In this document: positions 3,259 through 37,334 of the stretch, in pieces | Numbering within the stretch: the first letter of the stretch is position 1 | How the letters are laid out: each line of letters starts with the position of its first letter | DNA from: Candidatus Harrysmithiimonas galli | GTDB lineage: Bacteria; Bacillota; Bacilli; CAJFEE01 | Length of the DNA stretch: 37,334 bases | Assembly (NCBI GenBank): GCA_904373265.1 | Contig: CAJFEE010000029.1 | Location: forward strand, 1 to 37,334 | Direction of reading: 5' to 3' | The notes under the pieces: generated by a model | Databases searched by the model: none | The model's input: only the letters and a program-made list of their open reading frames with translations | What the model was told of the DNA's origin: nothing | Translations under genes and position numbers: made by a program

Positions 3259-4097
3259 ATCATAATAAAAAATTTATTTTGAAGATATTGTATTTTTTGT
3301 TTTTGGATTTCAAATATACGACAACCCTTACCCATTTTATCGAGTCACATAAATCCTTGTGTATCAAAGTATTTTAGACCATCAAGTTTTTACAACCAAC
3401 CACCGATTTTCCTGTATTTTGGTCATTTGGTTACATAAAAAACTTCTGTGTCAAGTTAGGGGTTTGATTTCATCTTCTAAAGTTTGTTGAAGACAAGCGA
3501 TAATATTGTTGAGCTTTTCATTTTTCTTTTCTATTTCATTTCTTCTTTATGTCTCTTACCATCATTTTTATACATGCTTTATATTGTGCGTCCGTTATTC
3601 CTCTACTTTCCATTTTTTTTCACCTCTTTATTTCAAAAGTCTTATCCCTTTTGATAATCATATTTATTGATGTTATGAAATCAAGGGATGTTTAAAGTTT
3701 TATCAATCAAGTTTATAACAAATTCATTCATAGACATATTTTTTACAAATATTTTTCTTTCTTTTTTCAACTATTATGTATAGATGGTTCTATTTTTTAT
3801 TGTACTTCCAAGCCACTTTCTTTTGAGATTCTGAATACGAAAAAAATACCTCCTTTGTTTTTTTATAGTATGGTTCTGTTTAATATGAATAAAAATATAT
3901 TTTCATAAAAAATATAACAATTTTTGTAGACGTTTCATTAAGTTGTGCTGGTAAGATACTCCAAGTAAAGTAAATAAGTCTGTCTGTAATTTTTACAGAA
4001 TAAATCAGTAAAATTTTTGGTTATTGATTTCTTTGATTTGTACTTTTGTTCTAGACCTTTTGTTTTTTAAAGCCTTGATTTTCTGTTTGAATATTTC
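3259..4097. other. AT-rich gap between the acyltransferase gene and yabG
   Basis: Apart from the frameshifted minus-strand remnant at 3451-3613, I see no coding frame or structured RNA here. Composition is strongly A/T with T-runs. It is consistent with eroded island DNA. Confidence 0.4.
3451..3613 (-). pseudogene. Small frameshifted gene, mobile-element type
   Basis: On the minus strand AGGTG precedes an ATG at 3613 that opens MESRGITDAQYKACIKMMVR and stops after ~25 codons. A +1 shift joins it to a frame reading EIEKKNEKLNNIIACLQQTL that ends at 3451. The two halves together resemble the ~50-residue accessory proteins often found next to serine recombinases. The break suggests a dead gene from the element whose recombinase tail lies at the window start. 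The function is unknown. Confidence 0.35.
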
Positions 4098-4151: not shown

Positions 4152-5015
4152 ATGGAGCTGAAAATCGGAGATTTGGTTGAGCGTATTTCATATGGCCGGG
4201 ATATTGTTTTTCGGGTGAAAGAAATTAAAGATCGAAATATGATTATAATGGTCGGTGAGGAGTTGCGTCTGATTGCGGATGCTCCTTATGATGACTTGGT
4301 TTTGGTAGATGCACGAGCATGGTCGTTATATACTGCAGAGTCGGAACAAAAGAAAAACGATGTGTACCAATTGTTTTTACAGGATTATGATTTGACACGC
4401 GAAAAACAGGCGTATGAGGCAACCGGTGGCTATCGTTCGCAAGTGAGTTACTTTCAAATTCCTGGTAGGGTTTTGCATATAGATGGTGATCCGATTTATT
4501 TAAAAAAATGTATTCATTTGTATAAGAAGCTAGGTGTCCCAGTTCAAGGCTATCATTGTAAAGAATCGGATTTGCCAGAGCATGTCCCAGAATTGATTGA
4601 TTATGTCAAACCAGATATTTTGGTTTTAACTGGACATGATGCGTTTATGAATGGGAAGGGTTCTGTATCTGATGTGCATGCATACCGCAATTCTCGCTAT
4701 TTTATTGATGCTGTGCAGAATGCCAGACAAAAGCAGCCACATTTGGATCAGCTTGTTATTTTTGCTGGAGCTTGTCAATCACATTTTGAAGCCATTATTC
4801 ATGCAGGTGCCAATTATGCCAGTTCACCAACACGCGTGAATATTCATGCGTTAGATCCAGTTTATGTGGTCGGGAAAATTAGTTTGACATCGTTTATGGA
4901 ACGCGTCAACGTGTGGGATGTTGTTCGCAACACATTGACTGGTGAAAAAGGAATCGGCGGTGTCGAAACAAAAGGTCTGTTAAGAATTGGTCTGCCTTAT
5001 CAGCCATTGGACTAA
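4152..5015 (+). CDS. yabG: Sporulation-specific protease YabG
   Basis: The 287-residue product matches YabG, the cysteine protease that processes spore-coat proteins in the mother cell and helps cross-link the coat. The conserved blocks are all present: PGRVLHIDGDPIYLKKC, DILVLTGHDA, FAGACQSHFEA, ASSPTRVNIHALDPVYV and NVWDVVRNTL. The Cys of GACQSHFE and the His of LTGHDA are the likely catalytic residues. The length is as usual for the family. An ATG six bases upstream is in frame but abuts the GGGGG ribosome site, so the second ATG with a 6-base spacer is preferred. In B. subtilis yabG and veg follow rnmV-ksgA next to yabE; here that linkage is lost. A sigma-K-like promoter lies just upstream. 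Confidence 0.95.
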   Translation: MELKIGDLVERISYGRDIVFRVKEIKDRNMIIMVGEELRLIADAPYDDLVLVDARAWSLYTAESEQKKNDVYQLFLQDYDLTREKQAYEATGGYRSQVSYFQIPGRVLHIDGDPIYLKKCIHLYKKLGVPVQGYHCKESDLPEHVPELIDYVKPDILVLTGHDAFMNGKGSVSDVHAYRNSRYFIDAVQNARQKQPHLDQLVIFAGACQSHFEAIIHAGANYASSPTRVNIHALDPVYVVGKISLTSFMERVNVWDVVRNTLTGEKGIGGVETKGLLRIGLPYQPLD

Positions 5016-29582: not shown

Positions 29583-29966
29583 ATGCCCTTAGTGTATCGT
29601 TCTTTTCTGTTCTCTCAATACATCTTATGTTGTGGTTCAACAAACAAGAATAATCCATCCAATTATATGTATGCAGGAGGGTATTATTTGCAAAAGAAAA
29701 ATTATGAGCAGGCAGAAAAAGCCTTTTCTGAAACTATTGCTAAAAGTAACAGTAGTGCAGAGGTAGCTTTGAAGCTTGGTCGTGTAGAATACGTATTAAA
29801 TAATTATAATGAAGCAGGAAAGAATTTATTGATGGAGGTATTTTACCTTCTAGCAAAAAATGCGTATGCTGCTAAAGAACGTGGAAAGGCGTTGGATTAT
29901 ATTTCTATTTCTTTATTTTTAGATCCAGACAACGCAAAATATAAAGAATTGAAAAAATCACTTTAG
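29583..29966 (+). CDS. TPR-repeat protein, probably truncated
   Basis: Residues from ~28 read as two tetratricopeptide units: YMYAGGYYLQKKNYEQAEKA and, after a likely internal deletion, LLAKNAYAAKERGKALDYIS with SLFLDPDNAKYKEL. The N-terminus (YILCCGSTNKNN) recalls a lipobox followed by a Ser/Asn-rich start, but the preceding residues are not a proper signal peptide and no ribosome site is visible. It was probably a surface lipoprotein with TPRs and is now broken. Confidence 0.45.
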   Translation: MPLVYRSFLFSQYILCCGSTNKNNPSNYMYAGGYYLQKKNYEQAEKAFSETIAKSNSSAEVALKLGRVEYVLNNYNEAGKNLLMEVFYLLAKNAYAAKERGKALDYISISLFLDPDNAKYKELKKSL

Positions 29967-30063: not shown

Positions 30064-30138
30064 ATGACATGGATGGAATTTTTAACGTTCTGTTTAGTAG
30101 TTGTAAGCATTATTTCTCTTGTTAAAAAACAAGATTAA
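30064..30138 (+). CDS. Small hydrophobic toxin-like peptide (type I TA)
   Basis: The 24-codon ORF reads MTWMEFLTFCLVVVSIISLV-KKQD: one membrane helix and a charged tail, as in the putative holin-like/TxpA-type toxins of Bacillota. Such peptides insert in the membrane. It has a strong ribosome site (GGGAGGTGATG) held in a hairpin. The mRNA 5' region GGGTTACTGC...GGTTAGTC (30016-30037) is complementary to its 3' region GACTAACC...GCAGTAACCC (30190-30219), allowing end-to-end folding. A candidate antisense RNA is read from the other strand. It is not homologous by eye to the plasmid peptide at 35025. Confidence 0.7.
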   Translation: MTWMEFLTFCLVVVSIISLVKKQD

Positions 30139-30142
30139 GAAA

Positions 30143-30695: not shown

Positions 30696-30902
30696 CTATT
30701 CTAATTCATTTCGTACCTTTTTAATTAGTTCAGAATGTACATTTATACTAAATCTACCAATTAATGAACTGTGCAATTCAATAACCACTTTGTTATTATC
30801 TTTTTTAATCCTAAGGATTTCCCTAGGATTATTAAAAACTTCAAAACAGTCTTTTTTGTGTTTTACAGTGCACTCTTTAAACGAATATTCTTGTTTATCC
30901 AT
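30696..30902 (-). CDS. Hypothetical protein, 68 aa
   Basis: MDKQEYSFKECTVKHKKDCF opens a small, charged cytoplasmic protein ending VHSELIKKVRNELE. I do not recognise the family. The ATG at 30902 follows GGAGGT by about ten bases, so it is preferred over the in-frame ATG at 30920. Its ribosome site touches the point (30921) where plasmid-identical sequence begins, so its promoter is not present here. That suggests the gene was cut off by insertion or by a misjoin. Confidence 0.55.
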   Translation of the reverse strand: MDKQEYSFKECTVKHKKDCFEVFNNPREILRIKKDNNKVVIELHSSLIGRFSINVHSELIKKVRNELE

Positions 30903-30920
30903 ACAGCATAATACCTCCAT

Positions 30921-31088
30921 AGTAATAGCAATTGCAGATTGGACTCAAAGAGGTTCAACAGTAAATATTAATGCTGCAAAAAGTCATGCAAATATTAGTG
31001 TTTATGGAACATGGGAATATAATGGTAAATATTAATGCTGCAAAAAGTCATGCAAATATTAGTGTTTATGGAACATGGGAATATAATG
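30921..31088 (+). repeat. Partial plasmid copy with 64-bp tandem duplication
   Basis: Bases 30921-31024 match 37231-37334 with one difference (A at 30925, G at 37235). Then the 64 bp at 30961-31024 are repeated exactly at 31025-31088. The same 64 bp form the last bases of the window (37271-37334). The duplication length is not a multiple of three, so it breaks the secreted-protein frame (WEYNGKY-stop). This is the signature of a circular unit entered twice. Confidence 0.95.
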
Positions 31089-31162
31089 CAGAGGTAGGAA
31101 GTGGGCTATTTACAATACCAATTGGTTTTAGAGTAAGTGATAGTTATAATCTAGTTTTATAA
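31089..31162 (+). CDS. Secreted plasmid protein, 3' end (continues from 37334)
   Basis: Read after the last base of the window, this segment supplies AEVGSGLFTIPIGFRVSDSY-NLVL and a TAA. It completes the gene starting at 36755 to 217 residues. In the linear sequence as given it is separated from its start by circular permutation. Confidence 0.85.
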
Positions 31163-31170
31163 GATATTTA

Positions 31171-31218
31171 AAAACTGCTCAAGACTTTTAATGAAATTTG
31201 AAAGTCTTGGGCAGTTTT
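31171..31218. terminator. Bidirectional terminator between two convergent plasmid genes
   Basis: AAAACTGCTCAAGACTTT pairs with AAAGTCTTGGGCAGTTTT (one G-T mismatch-type pair), with T-rich sequence outside both ends. It ends the secreted-protein gene and the minus-strand membrane gene. Confidence 0.88.
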
Positions 31219-31221
31219 ATT

Positions 31222-31461
31222 TTATAATTTATTTGGGTCAAAATATTGTAACGGTACGCTAAGATATACTGCAATTAGAAAGAAAAGGGAGATAAGAATA
31301 GCAATAATCATAAATATAAGAAGTATTTTCTTTAATTTATGTTCTGAGCATAATTTGATTAAAAAATAAAACATTACAACGATAAAAAAAGTATTTTTAA
31401 AGAAACTTTCTATGAAATTAGATATTATAACTATATATATATAATCAGCTATTTCAGTCAT
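31222..31461 (-). CDS. Small membrane protein, 79 aa (candidate immunity protein)
   Basis: The protein has two or three hydrophobic segments (NTFFIVVMFYFLIKLC; ILLIFMIIAILISLFFLIAV) with a basic loop EHKLKK. No family is recognised. AGGAG lies about eight bases before the ATG. It converges on the gene for the secreted protein across a shared terminator. A small membrane protein facing a secreted protein on a plasmid is a layout seen for bacteriocins and their immunity proteins; that role is inference only. Confidence 0.65.
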   Translation of the reverse strand: MTEIADYIYIVIISNFIESFFKNTFFIVVMFYFLIKLCSEHKLKKILLIFMIIAILISLFFLIAVYLSVPLQYFDPNKL

Positions 31462-31581
31462 TTTATTTCTCCTATATTTATTTTTATAAAATGGAATATA
31501 TAATATGAATAGAAAGGTTGTAAAGAAAAGAGCATTTTATTATTTCATAGTTTGTCTGAATTTAGATAAGTTAAAAGATGA

Positions 31582-31645
31582 GTTGAGCAAAAAAGAAACG
31601 GAGCAGGGGCAGATTTTTGTCTGTTGCTCTATTTTTTTACATAAA
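31582..31645 (+). terminator. Repeated terminator module, copy 1
   Basis: GTTGAGCAAAAAAGAAA is followed by a hairpin (GAGCA...CAGA/TCTG...TGCTC), a T-run and ACATAAA. It is about 80% identical by eye to 33117-33183. A 72-codon frame running across it has no ribosome site and is not called. Confidence 0.7.
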
Positions 31646-31685
31646 TCTGCTATTTTTGTGCCATTTTTCTTTTTTAAGATAGTAT

Positions 31686-31714
31686 TTGTAAAGGCAATCA
31701 AGAAAAAATATAAA
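31686..31714 (+). promoter_or_regulatory. Promoter of the small secreted protein gene
   Basis: TTGTAA, a 17-base spacer and TATAAA, 20 bp before the start codon. Confidence 0.6.
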
Positions 31715-31733
31715 ATGAAATGAGGAATATATT

Positions 31734-31982
31734 ATGACAAATCAATCTACATTACCAACAGTTAAAAAATTTATTTTACCAGCTATGTTATTAGCAGCTG
31801 TGCTAGCATTACCAGTGATGTCAGCATCTGCAAGTACAGATAAAGGTACTGAAAAAGTAACGGATGTAAATATGGAAAATGTTCAATATGAAATTGATAT
31901 GAAAGAATTGGGTATTAATCTAGATGAAGGATTTACATTTGAGTTTGGCGGATTTGACGAAGATACTAAATCTGTAAAATAA
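31734..31982 (+). CDS. Small secreted acidic protein, 82 aa
   Basis: A signal peptide with basic start and hydrophobic core (KKFILPAMLLAAVLALPVMS) ends near ASAS-T. The mature part is ~50 residues, acidic and Gly/Phe-rich at the end (FTFEFGGFDEDTKSVK). No family is recognised. GAGG lies about eight bases before the ATG, and a promoter is clear. It could be a pheromone precursor, a bacteriocin or a small surface protein; nothing in the sequence decides. Confidence 0.65.
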   Translation: MTNQSTLPTVKKFILPAMLLAAVLALPVMSASASTDKGTEKVTDVNMENVQYEIDMKELGINLDEGFTFEFGGFDEDTKSVK

Positions 31983-32041
31983 CTATAATGTTTAACAAAA
32001 AAAGCGATAGAAATTACTATCGTTTCAGAGTGTCGACAAAG

Positions 32042-32074
32042 TACCCCGAGAGTTTCGTCTCTCGAGGTATTTTA
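32042..32074 (+). terminator. Terminator after the small secreted protein
   Basis: TACCCCGAGAG pairs with CTCTCGAGGTA (one mismatch) over TTTCGT, followed by TTTTAT. A smaller hairpin GCGATAGAAATTACTATCGT lies just upstream. Confidence 0.7.
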
Positions 32075-32228
32075 TCATTTTTGAAGGTATTTGAGTTTAA
32101 ATTTCCCCTGAATTTTATGAGTGAAATGTCTCTACGAGACGTTTTCATCTCACATTAGGTAGCTTGTCATGTCCAAGTGGAAATTCCTTCAGAAGTGTTG
32201 TTTATGCTTTAAATGTTACAAATATATT

Positions 32229-32252
32229 AAAACGCTCATATGAGCGTTTTTT
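32229..32252. terminator. Palindromic terminator
   Basis: AAAACGCTCATATGAGCGTTTT is a perfect palindrome with further T residues. It precedes the promoter for the next two genes. Confidence 0.65.
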
Positions 32253-32294
32253 GTTGTTTTTTTGGGTGTGATGAATTATAATGAAAATATCAAA

Positions 32295-32306
32295 TAAGAC
32301 TTAAAC
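32295..32306 (+). repeat. 12-bp repeat TAAGACTTAAAC, copy 1
   Basis: Identical 12-mers lie at 32295-32306 and 32560-32571, each 22-25 bp before a start codon of two adjacent plasmid genes. They may be binding sites of one regulator. The first lies 12 bp after a TATAAT (32277-32282). Confidence 0.55.
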
Positions 32307-32343
32307 GATACAAAAAGGAGTTGGGCAAAATGAACGTCACTGC

Positions 32344-32553
32344 ATGATTACTGATGCTGACGGTGAAAGTCTTATGTTGGATTTGATATTTCAGCCAAAG
32401 CGTCATTTCTATCATGGTTATCCAAATGCTATGGATATACAAGTGCGAGCAACAACTTTTACAGAAAAAGAGTTGTATACGATTTATCTTGGAACGGTAG
32501 ATGAATTTGGGGAAATCCATAATTTTTTTGAAGCAGAAGGGGAATATATTTGA
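32344..32553 (+). CDS. Hypothetical plasmid protein, 69 aa, with overlapping mini-ORF
   Basis: MITDADGESLMLDLIFQPKR opens a soluble protein ending HNFFEAEGEYI; the family is unknown. The good ribosome site AAAGGAG serves an ATG at 32331 that encodes only MNVTA. Its TGA overlaps the ATG of this gene (ATGA). Either the gene is translationally coupled to a five-residue leader or one base was lost near 32343, which would fuse both into one frame. The downstream gene follows 40 bp later. Confidence 0.55.
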   Translation: MITDADGESLMLDLIFQPKRHFYHGYPNAMDIQVRATTFTEKELYTIYLGTVDEFGEIHNFFEAEGEYI

Positions 32554-32559
32554 TTTATA

Positions 32560-32571
32560 TAAGACTTAAAC
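32560..32571 (+). repeat. 12-bp repeat TAAGACTTAAAC, copy 2
   Basis: Second exact copy, 22 bp before the start of the 162-residue gene. Confidence 0.55.
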
Positions 32572-32593
32572 AGTTCAATTATGGGGTGGGAAT

Positions 32594-33082
32594 ATGGCAA
32601 ACATAACAGACAAAAAACTGTATGCACCAATTCAAAATGTGCAGTTTTCAAATCGGGACTATATCGAAAAGGCAAAACAGATTGCCAAAAAAATTGTTGA
32701 GTATGACCCCGAAGGAACAATGAGTGAGTATCATATTAAAAAAGGAACTCAAACCGCTGAAGATGTTGCTTATGTGCGAGATAAAGCGAGCGAGGATAGA
32801 GATATTTTGAAAGGTGATTTTGTGATTCTTGCCTATGTGGATATGTTTCGGGAACAAAAGAAATCTGTTGCTCCAATCGAGGGTAAAGGAAAATTCTTGA
32901 AAATGTCTGATAAGCTAATTCGTGCTATTTTTGAAAATGATAGAGATGGTGGTAAAGTAAATGATTTTTGCACCAAAAACCGCATAACACGAACAAAGTA
33001 TTATCGTGTCTTAAAAATGGACTTAAAACAGCCAAGAGATATTGAACGTATCGAGAGAATAAGAAAAGAAGTAGAAAAATAA
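32594..33082 (+). CDS. Hypothetical plasmid protein, 162 aa, possible HTH
   Basis: A charged soluble protein. The C-terminal part KVNDFCTKNRITRTKYYRVL has the look of a helix-turn-helix with a basic recognition helix, followed by a basic tail (RDIERIERIRKEVEK). The middle is highly charged. No family is recognised. GGGGTGGG precedes the ATG. Lying between the small 69-aa gene and the origin and mobilization region, it may regulate copy number or the 12-bp repeat sites. Confidence 0.65.
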   Translation: MANITDKKLYAPIQNVQFSNRDYIEKAKQIAKKIVEYDPEGTMSEYHIKKGTQTAEDVAYVRDKASEDRDILKGDFVILAYVDMFREQKKSVAPIEGKGKFLKMSDKLIRAIFENDRDGGKVNDFCTKNRITRTKYYRVLKMDLKQPRDIERIERIRKEVEK

Positions 33083-33116
33083 GAAAAAGAATTCCCTTTG
33101 TTTTCGGTAGGGAGGT

Positions 33117-33183
33117 GTTGAGCAAAAAAGAAATGGGGCAGGGTCAAATTTTTTGGCTATTGCTCCGTTTTTTTTACATAAAA
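33117..33183 (+). terminator. Repeated terminator module, copy 2
   Basis: Same layout as copy 1 at 31582-31645: GTTGAGCAAAAAAGAAA, a GGGCAGGGTCAAA/TTTTTTGGCTATTGCTCC hairpin, an eight-T run and ACATAAA. Confidence 0.7.
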
Positions 33184-33450
33184 TTGAGCGATGAAATTCA
33201 CTTAAATGAAAACTTCGTTTTCGTTTAGGTGGGTTTCGCATAAGCGAAATGTTGTAAAAAAAATTTTGTGACAAGGGGGAAAGAGTGGAGATTTTTTATT
33301 TTTGATTCCGCGTAAGCGGGTCAATCAAAAATAAAAAATACTACTCGTACCTTTTCACAAAAAAGGGATTTTTGGGGTGTTAGGTTTTTGGTTTTAAGCT
33401 AGCGAGAGCGTAGAGAGATTTTAAGGTTTTTTAGTCTCGCAGAGCGTTTT
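33184..33450. other. Candidate single-strand origin (sso)
   Basis: No gene. The stretch is rich in hairpins: AATGAAAACTTCGTTTTCGTTT, TTTCGCATAAGCGAAA and TTTGATTCCGCGTAAGCGGG...ATCAAA. It also contains TAGCGA at 33400-33405, like the CS-6 element in ssoA origins of rolling-circle plasmids. Position upstream of mob and the lack of genes fit an sso. The type is not assigned. Confidence 0.4.
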
Positions 33451-33483
33451 CATTTTGATGCGAAGTGTCGAAATACAGAAAAC

Positions 33484-33523
33484 GTTACTTTTACAAAAAG
33501 TAACAAAAGTTTGCTATACTTTT
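33484..33523 (+). other. Candidate oriT of the MobV plasmid
   Basis: Two adjacent inverted repeats: GTTACTTTT-ACA-AAAAGTAAC (33484-33504) and AAAAGT-TTGCTAT-ACTTTT (33505-33523). They lie 25 bp before the relaxase start. On the minus strand the second reads AAAAGTATAGCAAACTTTT, resembling the AAAGTATAG core of pMV158/pUB110-type origins, where the relaxase nicks. Confidence 0.55.
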
Positions 33524-33547
33524 AGTATTGAGGTGGTTTTAGTGAGT

Positions 33548-34939
33548 ATGTCGGTATCGTTAAAAAAAGCGACGAAAAAAACAAACATAAGACACAACAA
33601 TCGGACAATGAATGAAAAAGAAAAAGAGAAAAATTCACATATTGATTATTCTCGTTCTCATGAAAATAAATATCTTGTTCAAAAAGATTTAAAAGAGATT
33701 TATCGTGATGAATTTTCTCAAGCACTAAAAAATTACAATGAGAAACAAAAAAGAGCTGATAGAAAAATTGATGATTATTATAAGCACATTCAATCAAGTA
33801 AAAAAACAGCGCTTCAACAAGAAATGATTGTTCAAATTGGAGATAAAGATGATTTTTCTAGTAAAGAAAAAAAGGATATGGCTAATGAGATATTACAAGA
33901 ATGGTTTTTAGGATTTGAAAAAAGAAATCCTAATCTAAAAATCTATAATGCTGTGATTCACAATGATGAAGCTACTCCGCATATGCATTTGAATTTTGTG
34001 CCTGTTGCAACTGGTTATAAGCGAGGATTAGAAAAACAAGTTGCTTTTGATAAAGCAATTACGCAACAAGATGAGACATTGAACAAAGAAAGACCATTTG
34101 ACGACTGGCGAGAAAAAGAAGTGCGGTTGTTAGAAAAAATGTTGTTGGAACGTGGAATTGAACGGAAATTTGTTGGTACAAACGAATACCAAGATGTAAC
34201 TGAGTTTAAAAAAAAGATGAGAGAACTTGAATTGATTGAAAAAGATTTGAAAGCTAAAAAAGATGAACTGTTGAAGTTAAACGAGGAATTACCAGTTGAT
34301 TTGAAAATCGTTGCTAAAAAAGAATTTAAGAAAGTTGAGGTAAAAAGCAAAGAAAAAAATATGTTTGGTATGGCAAAAACAGAATTTGTTAGAAAAGAAA
34401 CTGGGAATGTAGTTATATCAGTCGACGATTATAAAAAGCTTTTGAGGCTTTCTAAACGCAATGAGGAAATGAAAAATAAAGTTAAAAAGATTTTAAGTAC
34501 AGATTTTGCGAAGGAAAATAGAAAATTACAGACAGATAACGCAGTTCTTTTTGCAGACCTTAAAAGTAAAGCAATAGAGAATATAAGATTAAAAGAAGAC
34601 AATTTAACCTTAAAAAATGAGAATAGGCTTCTAACATCCAAAATGGCATCTATAAGGCTCGGAATTAATTTGGCATATAAAACCATTAAAGATTTTTTTA
34701 AAAGCCATACAGATAGCATTATGGCGTCGAGAGAGCTATTTAATAATTTTATATATATGGTAAAAGGAAATGACCCAAAAAATGAGTTTGTTAAGATTTA
34801 TCAGCAAGAACAAGATGAAGAAAAGAAAAAGGCGTCCTCGATGTTTAGCATGAAAGGCGTTAAACAGATTGATAGTCAGCAAAGAGATATGCAGCAGTCA
34901 GTTAAGAAAAAAAATAGAGATAGGGGCATGGATAGGTAG
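33548..34939 (+). CDS. mobV: MobV-family relaxase (plasmid mobilization protein)
   Basis: The 463-residue protein (Pre/Mob family) nicks oriT and stays attached to the transferred strand. Motif I with HNNR is at 16-19, and the metal-binding motif III HNDEATPHMH is at 138-147, followed by LNFVPV. A long Lys/Glu-rich coiled coil fills ~190-400. GAGGTGG precedes both GTG 33542 and ATG 33548; the ATG is chosen, with some doubt. It needs a conjugative helper to move. It is the only gene of its type in the window. Confidence 0.9.
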   Translation: MSVSLKKATKKTNIRHNNRTMNEKEKEKNSHIDYSRSHENKYLVQKDLKEIYRDEFSQALKNYNEKQKRADRKIDDYYKHIQSSKKTALQQEMIVQIGDKDDFSSKEKKDMANEILQEWFLGFEKRNPNLKIYNAVIHNDEATPHMHLNFVPVATGYKRGLEKQVAFDKAITQQDETLNKERPFDDWREKEVRLLEKMLLERGIERKFVGTNEYQDVTEFKKKMRELELIEKDLKAKKDELLKLNEELPVDLKIVAKKEFKKVEVKSKEKNMFGMAKTEFVRKETGNVVISVDDYKKLLRLSKRNEEMKNKVKKILSTDFAKENRKLQTDNAVLFADLKSKAIENIRLKEDNLTLKNENRLLTSKMASIRLGINLAYKTIKDFFKSHTDSIMASRELFNNFIYMVKGNDPKNEFVKIYQQEQDEEKKKASSMFSMKGVKQIDSQQRDMQQSVKKKNRDRGMDR

Positions 34940-34970
34940 GTATATGAAATACAAAAGAATTTAAAAAAGC

Positions 34971-34976
34971 TATAAT
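34971..34976 (+). promoter_or_regulatory. -10 box of the plasmid toxin transcript
   Basis: TATAAT, with no clear -35. Transcription would start near 34983. The leader can pair CCCT (34991-34994) with AGGG of the ribosome site near 35011, possibly hiding it. Confidence 0.45.
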
Positions 34977-35024
34977 AGGTGTGTTGTCTACCCTACACTG
35001 ACATCAGTAAGGGGGTGTATTCTG

Positions 35025-35105
35025 TTGTCTTTTAGCTCATTTATTTTGTCTATTGTGGCAAGTGTTATTGCGTATTATTTTTGCAAATGGTTGGATAGAC
35101 AGTAA
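35025..35105 (+). CDS. Small membrane toxin-like peptide (Fst-like module)
   Basis: A 26-residue peptide, LSFSSFILSIVASVIAYYFC then KWLDRQ: one membrane helix and a charged tail. The start is not ATG; TTG 35025 (nine bases after GGGGG) or CTG 35022 are the options. Direct repeats GTGTATTCTGTTG and AGCTCATT flank it (35015-35041 and 35176-35206). A bidirectional terminator and a convergent promoter follow. This is the layout of the par/Fst stabilization locus of pAD1. The peptide lacks the Fst P-x-x-x-G motif, so it is Fst-like in design, not clearly in sequence. Confidence 0.7.
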   Translation: MSFSSFILSIVASVIAYYFCKWLDRQ

Positions 35106-35143
35106 TTTAGACAATCAGCCAATCAAATTGTTCCTAGAACAAC

Positions 35144-35175
35144 AAAAAAGCGAGAGTTGCAGCTCTCGCTTTTTT
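35144..35175. terminator. Bidirectional terminator of the plasmid TA module
   Basis: GCGAGAG pairs with CTCTCGC over TTGCAG, with AAAAAA before and TTTTTT after. It ends both the toxin mRNA and the convergent RNA. Confidence 0.85.
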
Positions 35176-35209
35176 GTGTATTCTGTTGCCAGAAGTTCAG
35201 CTCATTAGT
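35144..35209 (-). ncRNA. Candidate antitoxin RNA (RNA II-like)
   Basis: A minus-strand RNA would start near 35209 after TATAAT (35221-35216) and stop at the shared terminator: about 66 nt, as for RNA II of pAD1. It carries the complement of the second direct repeat and so can pair with the first repeat in the toxin mRNA and with the terminator stem. Confidence 0.6.
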
Positions 35210-35235
35210 AAACACATTATATCATATGTGTTTAC
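35208..35235 (-). promoter_or_regulatory. Antitoxin promoter inside a perfect inverted repeat
   Basis: GTAAACACAT (35208-35217) and ATGTGTTTAC (35226-35235) form perfect 10-bp arms around TATATCAT. The minus-strand -10 TATAAT lies within. The repeat could be an operator for a plasmid regulator. Confidence 0.5.
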
Positions 35236-35377
35236 TGTTTAGTATTGCCAAATCAAATAAAAAAGTATTATTATTAACTTCTGTAATTTTTATGCAAATA
35301 TTTGTATGTATATACAAAACGAAATACGTGAAATTTGCCAAAATTTTACCCCAAAAACGAGGGGCGAAAACTAGTTT

Positions 35378-35392
35378 TTTCTTATCTTGATA
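35378..35392 (+). other. Double-strand origin nick site (dso)
   Basis: TTTCTTATCTTGATA matches the conserved nick region of pC194/pUB110 plasmids, cut within CTTG-ATA. A CCCC...GGGG hairpin (35349-35364) lies just upstream, as expected of the Rep binding region. The matching Rep gene starts 172 bp later. Confidence 0.85.
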
Positions 35393-35563
35393 CATATAGA
35401 AACAACTCAAGTGTAGAAAAACATGGTTTGAGTCGAGAGCTTCAAGGGTTTGAAGGGGTTTTGTCGGGTGGATAAAAAAAGAGCCTTCTGCTATAATTGG
35501 AATTGACGAGATTCACAAAATAGAGAGGGCTTTTTCTCTCACCAAGAAGGCGAGGTTTTTGTA

Positions 35564-36628
35564 TTGATTATACAAAAAGATAATACCATAAAGTATAAAG
35601 ATATATCAACACAAATAAAGACTACAAAATTTTTAGAAGATAAAGATTCAAAAGGGAAAGTAAGAGATTGGAAAGGTAAGAAAAAGCGTTCATTGTTGAT
35701 GGCTGATCATTATGGAGAAGTTGAAGGGTTAGAGAAAAAGACTGAACGTATGTATGATTGCGGTGGGGTTTTGACGTTTAAATTGAGAGAGGGACGGTTA
35801 AAGTTATATCAAGCTTATTTTTGTAAAGCGAGATTATGCCCTATGTGTAATTGGAGAAGGTCGCTAAAAATTGCTTTTCAAAACAAAAAAATCGTTGAAG
35901 AAGTTAATAATCGTGAAAAAGTTAAATGGATTTTTCTTACATTGACAGTTCGAAACGTTGAGAGACAAGAATTGAAAGATATAATGAATCAGATGACAAA
36001 AGCATGGAATCGTTTTACTGGTTATGCTCGATTTAAAAAATCAGTTAAAGGATATTTTCGAGCGTTAGAAGTAACACGAAATTGGGATAAAGAAAGTGAT
36101 TGGTATGGTACGTATCACCCGCATTTTCATGTGTTACTTGCAGTTCCGCAATCTTATTTTAAAAAGAATTATATAAAACAATCTGAATGGACAAGCATGT
36201 GGCAACGTGCAATGAAACTGAATTATACGCCGATTGTTCATGTTAAAAGGGTTCAAGCTAAAAAAGAGTCGTTAGATTTTGTTGAAATTGAAGATGAAAT
36301 GAAAAAAGCTATTGTAGAACAAAATGCGATTTTCGAAGTTTCAAAGTATCCAGTTAAAGATATTGATGTAATTCGTGGTAATGAAGTGACTGTTGAAAAT
36401 GCTCAGGTTGTTAAGGATTTAGATGGTTCACTTGCGTATAAACGTTTGATTTCATATGGTGGGCTATTAAAGGAAATACATAAGGAATTAAATTTGAGTG
36501 ATGCGGAAGATGGGGATTTAGTTCATGTTGATGATAATTCAGATGAAATTGCCAATGGGGCTGTTGATGTGATGGTTTATTGGCATGTTGGTATAAATAA
36601 TTATGTGATTATGACAGAGGGAAAATAG
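35564..36628 (+). CDS. rep: Rolling-circle replication initiator, Rep_1 family
   Basis: The 354-residue Rep nicks the dso and primes leading-strand synthesis. It has the pUB110/pC194 layout: a Cys cluster (C66, CKARLCPMC 87-95), motif I FLTLTVRN (124-131), the HUH motif HPHFH (185-189) and the catalytic Tyr262 in EVSKYPVKD (258-266). The start is TTG at 35564, eight bases after GAGG. TATAAT at 35492-35497 is the likely -10. The C-terminus is acidic. The product type matches the nick site upstream. Confidence 0.93.
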   Translation: MIIQKDNTIKYKDISTQIKTTKFLEDKDSKGKVRDWKGKKKRSLLMADHYGEVEGLEKKTERMYDCGGVLTFKLREGRLKLYQAYFCKARLCPMCNWRRSLKIAFQNKKIVEEVNNREKVKWIFLTLTVRNVERQELKDIMNQMTKAWNRFTGYARFKKSVKGYFRALEVTRNWDKESDWYGTYHPHFHVLLAVPQSYFKKNYIKQSEWTSMWQRAMKLNYTPIVHVKRVQAKKESLDFVEIEDEMKKAIVEQNAIFEVSKYPVKDIDVIRGNEVTVENAQVVKDLDGSLAYKRLISYGGLLKEIHKELNLSDAEDGDLVHVDDNSDEIANGAVDVMVYWHVGINNYVIMTEGK

Positions 36629-36754
36629 ATTGGATAAAAAGTATTTTTTATTTTATGGAAAAATTAGCCTTATTACCTATTTATTATATATGTATTATAT
36701 GATTTAATCTTTGTAGGAGTAAAATAAAAAATATTTAATAGGGAGATGAAGTTT

Positions 36755-37334
36755 ATGGAAAAATTATTTTCAGCAATTACTTTTACTATTCTTTTTATTT
36801 TATTTGGTGCTTATACTTCTGCTAATGCATCTGCGCCAGAGACGTTCGATGACATAAAAAATATTATTAATCAAGAATTTGATAATTATGTTGAAATTTA
36901 TGAACTAAATGAATCTTTGAATATAGAAACTAGATCATCATACGTATCAAATGAAACATTGAAATTTGATACTAAGGAAGAATTGATAGAATTTATTAGA
37001 GAACTTAAAGAAAACGAACCTATAATTGAAAAAGAAGAAAGTTTAATAACTAATAATAATTCTTTTAGAAGTAATTCTATAAATGAGGTAGCTCAATATA
37101 AAATTACTCCTACTATAAAAAATTTAAAACAACCTTTTGCACTTCGAGTATTAGTTAGTTATAATTACACTCCAGTTGGTTATATAACAAAATTTATAAA
37201 TTCAGTAGGCAATGTTGATTCTTATTCAACAGTAGTAGCAATTGCAGATTGGACTCAAAGAGGTTCAACAGTAAATATTAATGCTGCAAAAAGTCATGCA
37301 AATATTAGTGTTTATGGAACATGGGAATATAATG
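36755..37334 (+). CDS. Secreted plasmid protein, 5' part (runs off the window)
   Basis: A signal peptide (LFSAITFTILFILFGAYTSA, cleavage near ANASA) opens the gene. The prepart (~28-110) is charged and Asn/Glu-rich. The C-terminal third is Gly/Ser/Val-rich and likely beta-stranded (SHANISVYGTWEYN). The frame is open at 37334 and resumes at 31089, giving 217 residues in the circle. GGGAG lies nine bases before the ATG. No family is recognised; a pro-region followed by a beta-rich tail would suit a secreted bacteriocin or surface protein. Confidence 0.85.
   Translation, partial: MEKLFSAITFTILFILFGAYTSANASAPETFDDIKNIINQEFDNYVEIYELNESLNIETRSSYVSNETLKFDTKEELIEFIRELKENEPIIEKEESLITNNNSFRSNSINEVAQYKITPTIKNLKQPFALRVLVSYNYTPVGYITKFINSVGNVDSYSTVVAIADWTQRGSTVNINAAKSHANISVYGTWEYN

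Follow-up and report, generated by a model that had tools for sequence, protein, structure and literature searches.

The whole-plasmid integration that contig C29 of the Candidatus Harrysmithiimonas galli draft genome appears to carry is almost certainly an assembly artefact, as is the exact tandem repeat at its edge, both stemming from a joint made by the assembler. The window analysed was this entire contig (CAJFEE010000029.1, 37,334 bp), one of the 59 that make up the 2.70-Mb draft (GCA_904373265.1). Several observations support this reading: the draft was assembled with k = 99, the joint pattern recurs at other places in it, the plasmid is found as a circle in independent data, and no second plasmid-chromosome joint occurs in the contigs searched.

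The joint and the plasmid circle

The chromosomal part of C29 spans positions 1-30925 of the plus strand, as judged from Pfam matches and from the presence of plasmid sequence from 30926 on; its genes assigned by Pfam include dnaX, recR, a methionyl-tRNA synthetase gene and a yabE-like gene. A preliminary description of this DNA had reported, at 30921-31024, a 104-bp copy of plasmid positions 37231-37334 with one base different, followed directly by an exact 64-bp tandem, and exact comparison bore out both statements. Positions 30926-31024 and 37236-37334 (both plus strand) were identical at 99 out of 99 bases, and we refer to this 99-bp word, which forms the overlap between the chromosomal and the plasmid contigs, as K. 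The base preceding K at 30925, the final chromosomal one, is an A where the plasmid has a G (37235), this being the single mismatch, and the AGTA at 30921-30924 likewise matches the plasmid. The 104 bp are thus made up of 99 exact bases, one mismatch and four bases matched by chance or microhomology. Positions 31025-31088 (plus strand) repeat 30961-31024, the last 64 bp of K, and the same 64 bp are found a third time at 37271-37334, where the final base of K is also the final base of C29. This similarity is far above chance. The joint had also been placed close to the ribosome site of a 68-aa gene, and indeed the ATG (30902) and GGAGG (30914-30918) of this minus-strand gene (30696-30902) lie just to its left. 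The 68-aa gene is an orphan: the single further genome of the same order that we compared (G001) contains no relative, and a near-DNA search of PLSDB with the chromosomal side of the joint produced no match.

The sequence beyond the tandem, 31089-37334 on the plus strand, corresponds to a small circular plasmid of 6,246 bp that is linearised at 37334/31089. The cut falls within a gene for a 217-aa protein with a signal-peptide-like N-terminus, the first part of which lies at 36755-37334 and the last 74 nt, including the stop codon, at 31089-31162 (both plus strand). Its 654 nt stay in frame when 37334 is read directly into 31089, and the 64-bp tandem disrupts this frame. When GTDB genomes were scanned with the 217-aa protein, one contig matched, DVJT01000205.1 (L156; 6,265 bp), whose 19-bp terminal repeat closes it into a circle of 6,246 bp. 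Compared with 31089-37334 closed on itself, this circle showed 3 mismatches and no gaps (99.95% identity), making it the same plasmid; in contrast to C29, it has neither the chromosomal joint nor the tandem, passing directly from 37334 to 31089, and in it the 217-aa gene is contiguous. The chicken-gut metagenomes behind DVJT01000205.1 were assembled by MEGAHIT with k ranging from 25 to 127 (PMC8035907). As it comes from a separate study that used other k values, DVJT01000205.1 represents an independent assembly. It was binned in the MAG of a melainabacterium, Candidatus Avigastranaerophilus faecigallinarum, probably by mistake, because relatives of its Rep and Mob proteins are mostly found in Bacillota.

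Two of the plasmid genes identify its type. At 35564-36628 (plus strand) lies a Rep_1 rolling-circle replication initiator of the pC194/pUB110 type (PF01446, E 7.7e-82; 275 bits, cut-off 33.2), at most about 61% identical to its counterparts in the small Bacillaceae plasmids among those listed; a search for this Rep among viral contigs yielded no match. Upstream, TTTTCTTATCTTGATA at 35377-35392 (plus strand) is a probable double-strand origin by its motif, with the conserved origin motif TCTTATCTTGATA present at 35380; we take this motif to be the nick site. Positions 35374-35410 were also the only near DNA match of the plasmid in the PLSDB search, to Bacillus plasmids. A Mob_Pre/MobV-like mobilisation relaxase (PF01076, E 4.8e-44) is encoded at 33455-34939 (plus strand), although its true start may lie further inside. 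It is about 55% identical to plasmid recombination proteins, and scored 151 bits with Mob_Pre, above the cut-off, but 48.7 bits with the NCBIfam MobV model, under its cut-off of 100. The plasmid shares with pC194/pUB110-type plasmids carrying MobV/Pre the Rep_1 and Mob_Pre genes, the origin motif, the circular form and a size of 6.2 kb. It differs from them in the divergence of its Rep, in having no close match in PLSDB outside the origin and in the 217-aa gene, to which no family could be assigned and whose protein had no tblastn match in PLSDB. It is a free plasmid of 6,246 bp without a close relative in PLSDB and, read from its sequence, would be an ordinary mobilisable rolling-circle plasmid. 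Elsewhere in the draft, a broken Rep_1 initiator copy (38% identity, 3 stops) was found at C4:86509-86829 (L018), a possible remnant of another plasmid.

Contig-end overlaps and recurring tandems

We compared the ends of all contigs of the draft except the seven below 3 kb, which read only N. Exactly 99 identical bases were common to five contig-end pairs (C8/C44, C12/C20, C28/C17, C8/C57 and C16/C33, the C33 copy of the last pair sitting near, rather than at, the contig end), and k was therefore 99: these overlaps are the residue of a de Bruijn assembler with a final k of that length. The exact copy at the C29 joint has the same length as these overlaps. A search of the contigs revealed six contig-terminal 99-mers that recur inside a contig, in all six cases with a leftward extension of 0. 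In four out of the six, the suffix of the internal copy was exactly repeated directly after it, over 9 bp in C46 (L033 3894-4001), 19 bp in C36 (L112 10483-10600), 31 bp in C33 (L109 1606-1735) and 64 bp in C29. Exact tandems of at least 9 bp end at just 64 of 585,632 positions, about 1 in 9,000, and the probability of finding four suffix tandems among six words by chance is about 2e-15. Against this background, the suffix tandems must be regarded as a signature of scaffolding, left by joins in which the 99-base overlap was partly trimmed. Other exact tandems, in C53, C6, C36 (L112:10993) and C37, had no contig-terminal word at their position and were not considered further.

Other traits of the draft point in the same direction. 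It contains gaps of 48 to 78 Ns elsewhere, indicating that contigs had been scaffolded, and SPAdes outputs a scaffold gap estimate below k as a partial overlap. Moreover, the contigs are sorted roughly by falling size. C29 is misplaced at 37,334 and fits at 31,024 (between 33,062 and 29,663), and C46 is misplaced at 4,822 and fits at 3,992; both fitting sizes equal the end of K at the respective joint. It should be considered that two of the six internal copies have no suffix repeat and that C3, C10 and C28 are also out of size order yet without such a tandem, all of which counts against an assembler origin of the joint.

The following series of steps would account for these features. Short reads would have been assembled in a de Bruijn graph with k = 99, the chromosomal contig ending at 31024 in K, which is also within the small circular plasmid. 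The plasmid would have been represented as a loop with K at both its start and its end, and a joining step would then have appended the loop to the chromosomal contig. Since that step would have trimmed only 35 of the 99 overlap bases, the last 64 bases of K would have been doubled. What we infer is the precise step within the program, as well as a 30925|30926 link that rests on chimeric or few reads. Joins by k-mer overlap of the SPAdes type with a final k of 99 have the same properties: ends share k bases, a circular contig is flanked by one word, and partly trimmed overlaps yield exact short tandems. C29 differs from them in that the plasmid contig was additionally fused to a chromosomal contig. 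A literature search on this artefact retrieved nothing beyond general assembly papers.

The preliminary description had left two readings side by side, an assembly overlap at the end of a circular contig and the mark of a real integration. The first is backed by the 99-base overlaps, the three like joints, the independent circle and the lack of a second joint. For the second, in which the whole plasmid would truly have integrated at 30925 and the 64-bp tandem would have arisen during the event, we found no support and consider it very improbable. C29 does read as an integration, the plasmid genes coming without a gap. However, link (30925|30926) and tandem point (31024|31025) lie exactly k bases apart, which would be a coincidence if the plasmid had integrated, and the same kind of suffix repeat is seen at three unrelated joints. 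The circle is intact elsewhere, with a gene that the tandem breaks, and the interrupted chromosome does not resume: C29 ends inside the plasmid at 37334, and rnmV, the expected neighbour, is on C27. A second plasmid-chromosome joint, whose presence the preliminary description had proposed checking, was not found in the contigs searched, nor was a further plasmid copy, the seven contigs below 3 kb being masked as N. A real tandem duplication present in the reads was also considered; it would likewise end the contig at 37334, but fails to explain the exact 99-bp distance between link and tandem or the three other joints.

An assembler-made joint implies that a free plasmid can appear integrated in a draft genome, the tell-tale sign being an exact tandem whose first copy finishes where a contig-terminal k-mer ends. 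The sign is present at four or more joints of this draft, and gene calls across them are therefore unsafe. The one in C29 splits the 217-aa plasmid gene and puts plasmid genes on a chromosomal contig, and the sequence across those in C33, C36 and C46 is untrustworthy.

The chromosomal neighbour and the origin of the link

In G001, the only other genome of the same order compared, 95 bp separate yabE from the adjacent rnmV. In the draft, the end of yabE is at 28095 in C29, while rnmV is located, together with ksgA, on C27, the end of which is therefore the expected neighbour of the chromosomal end of C29. By this synteny, the true neighbour of 30925 would most likely be the C27 end, over an unassembled gap. 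C27 ends in a plasmid-like stretch (C27:32942-33062, L104) that is 79% identical to 31382-31483 over 102 columns and matches the start of a 79-aa gene. It comes immediately past the trailing end of a CRISPR array, and its orientation is the one predicted for a C29-C27 gap occupied by plasmid-like DNA. This remnant implies some plasmid-like DNA at the chromosomal site and counts against an artefact, as does the plasmid sequence directly after 30925, a de Bruijn link normally needing at least a few spanning reads.

These observations bear on how the assembler came to make the joint. If the link were real, the yabE-rnmV interval, beside the trailing end of the CRISPR array, would hold a remnant of the plasmid or of a relative (from about 37236 to 31483, some 0.5 kb); its left edge would match the plasmid without a difference for 99 bp or more, causing the graph to merge the two and the assembler to exit via the plasmid loop, the tandem still being an artefact. 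The facing end of C27, the syntenic neighbour, does end in plasmid-like sequence in the predicted order and orientation, with a 79-aa gene that has no other genomic copy outside the plasmid. We nevertheless regard a real link as unlikely, given that the C27 piece is 79% identical as opposed to the 100% of K over 99 bp, that the terminal 99-mer of C27 is absent from all other sequences searched, and that the C29-C27 gap is missing from the assembly. We rather favour, with some reserve, that chimeric fragments or homology-driven template switching joined the chromosome end to a high-copy plasmid, leaving a graph edge at 30925|30926 that had no physical counterpart in the cell. Rolling-circle plasmids of the pC194/pUB110 type are often multicopy, which fits this origin, as does the microhomology of just 4 bp (AGTA) at the link.

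CRISPR repeats and small peptides

CRISPR arrays with the repeat GTTGAACCACAACATAAGATGTATTGAAAT were present at three contig ends, in C27 (L104 1-2000), C6 (L083) and C34 (L110), the repeats degenerating toward the C27 end. None of the 64 spacers had a target in the plasmid when up to 9 mismatches were allowed. A solitary copy of the repeat, with 2 substitutions, was located at 29612-29641 of the window. It falls within a TPR-like reading frame of 127 aa and there seems to code for a segment of a lipoprotein signal. At 30064-30139 and around 35026-35105, the window encodes two small hydrophobic peptides, MTWMEFLTFCLVVVSIISLVKKQD and MLSFSSFILSIVASVIAYYFCKWLDRQ, respectively, each near a hairpin. 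By eye they resemble the toxins of type I toxin-antitoxin systems, and neither matched any NCBIfam model. DNA resembling the 30064-30139 locus was also found in C42 and at the ends of C28, C37, C20, C17 and C5.
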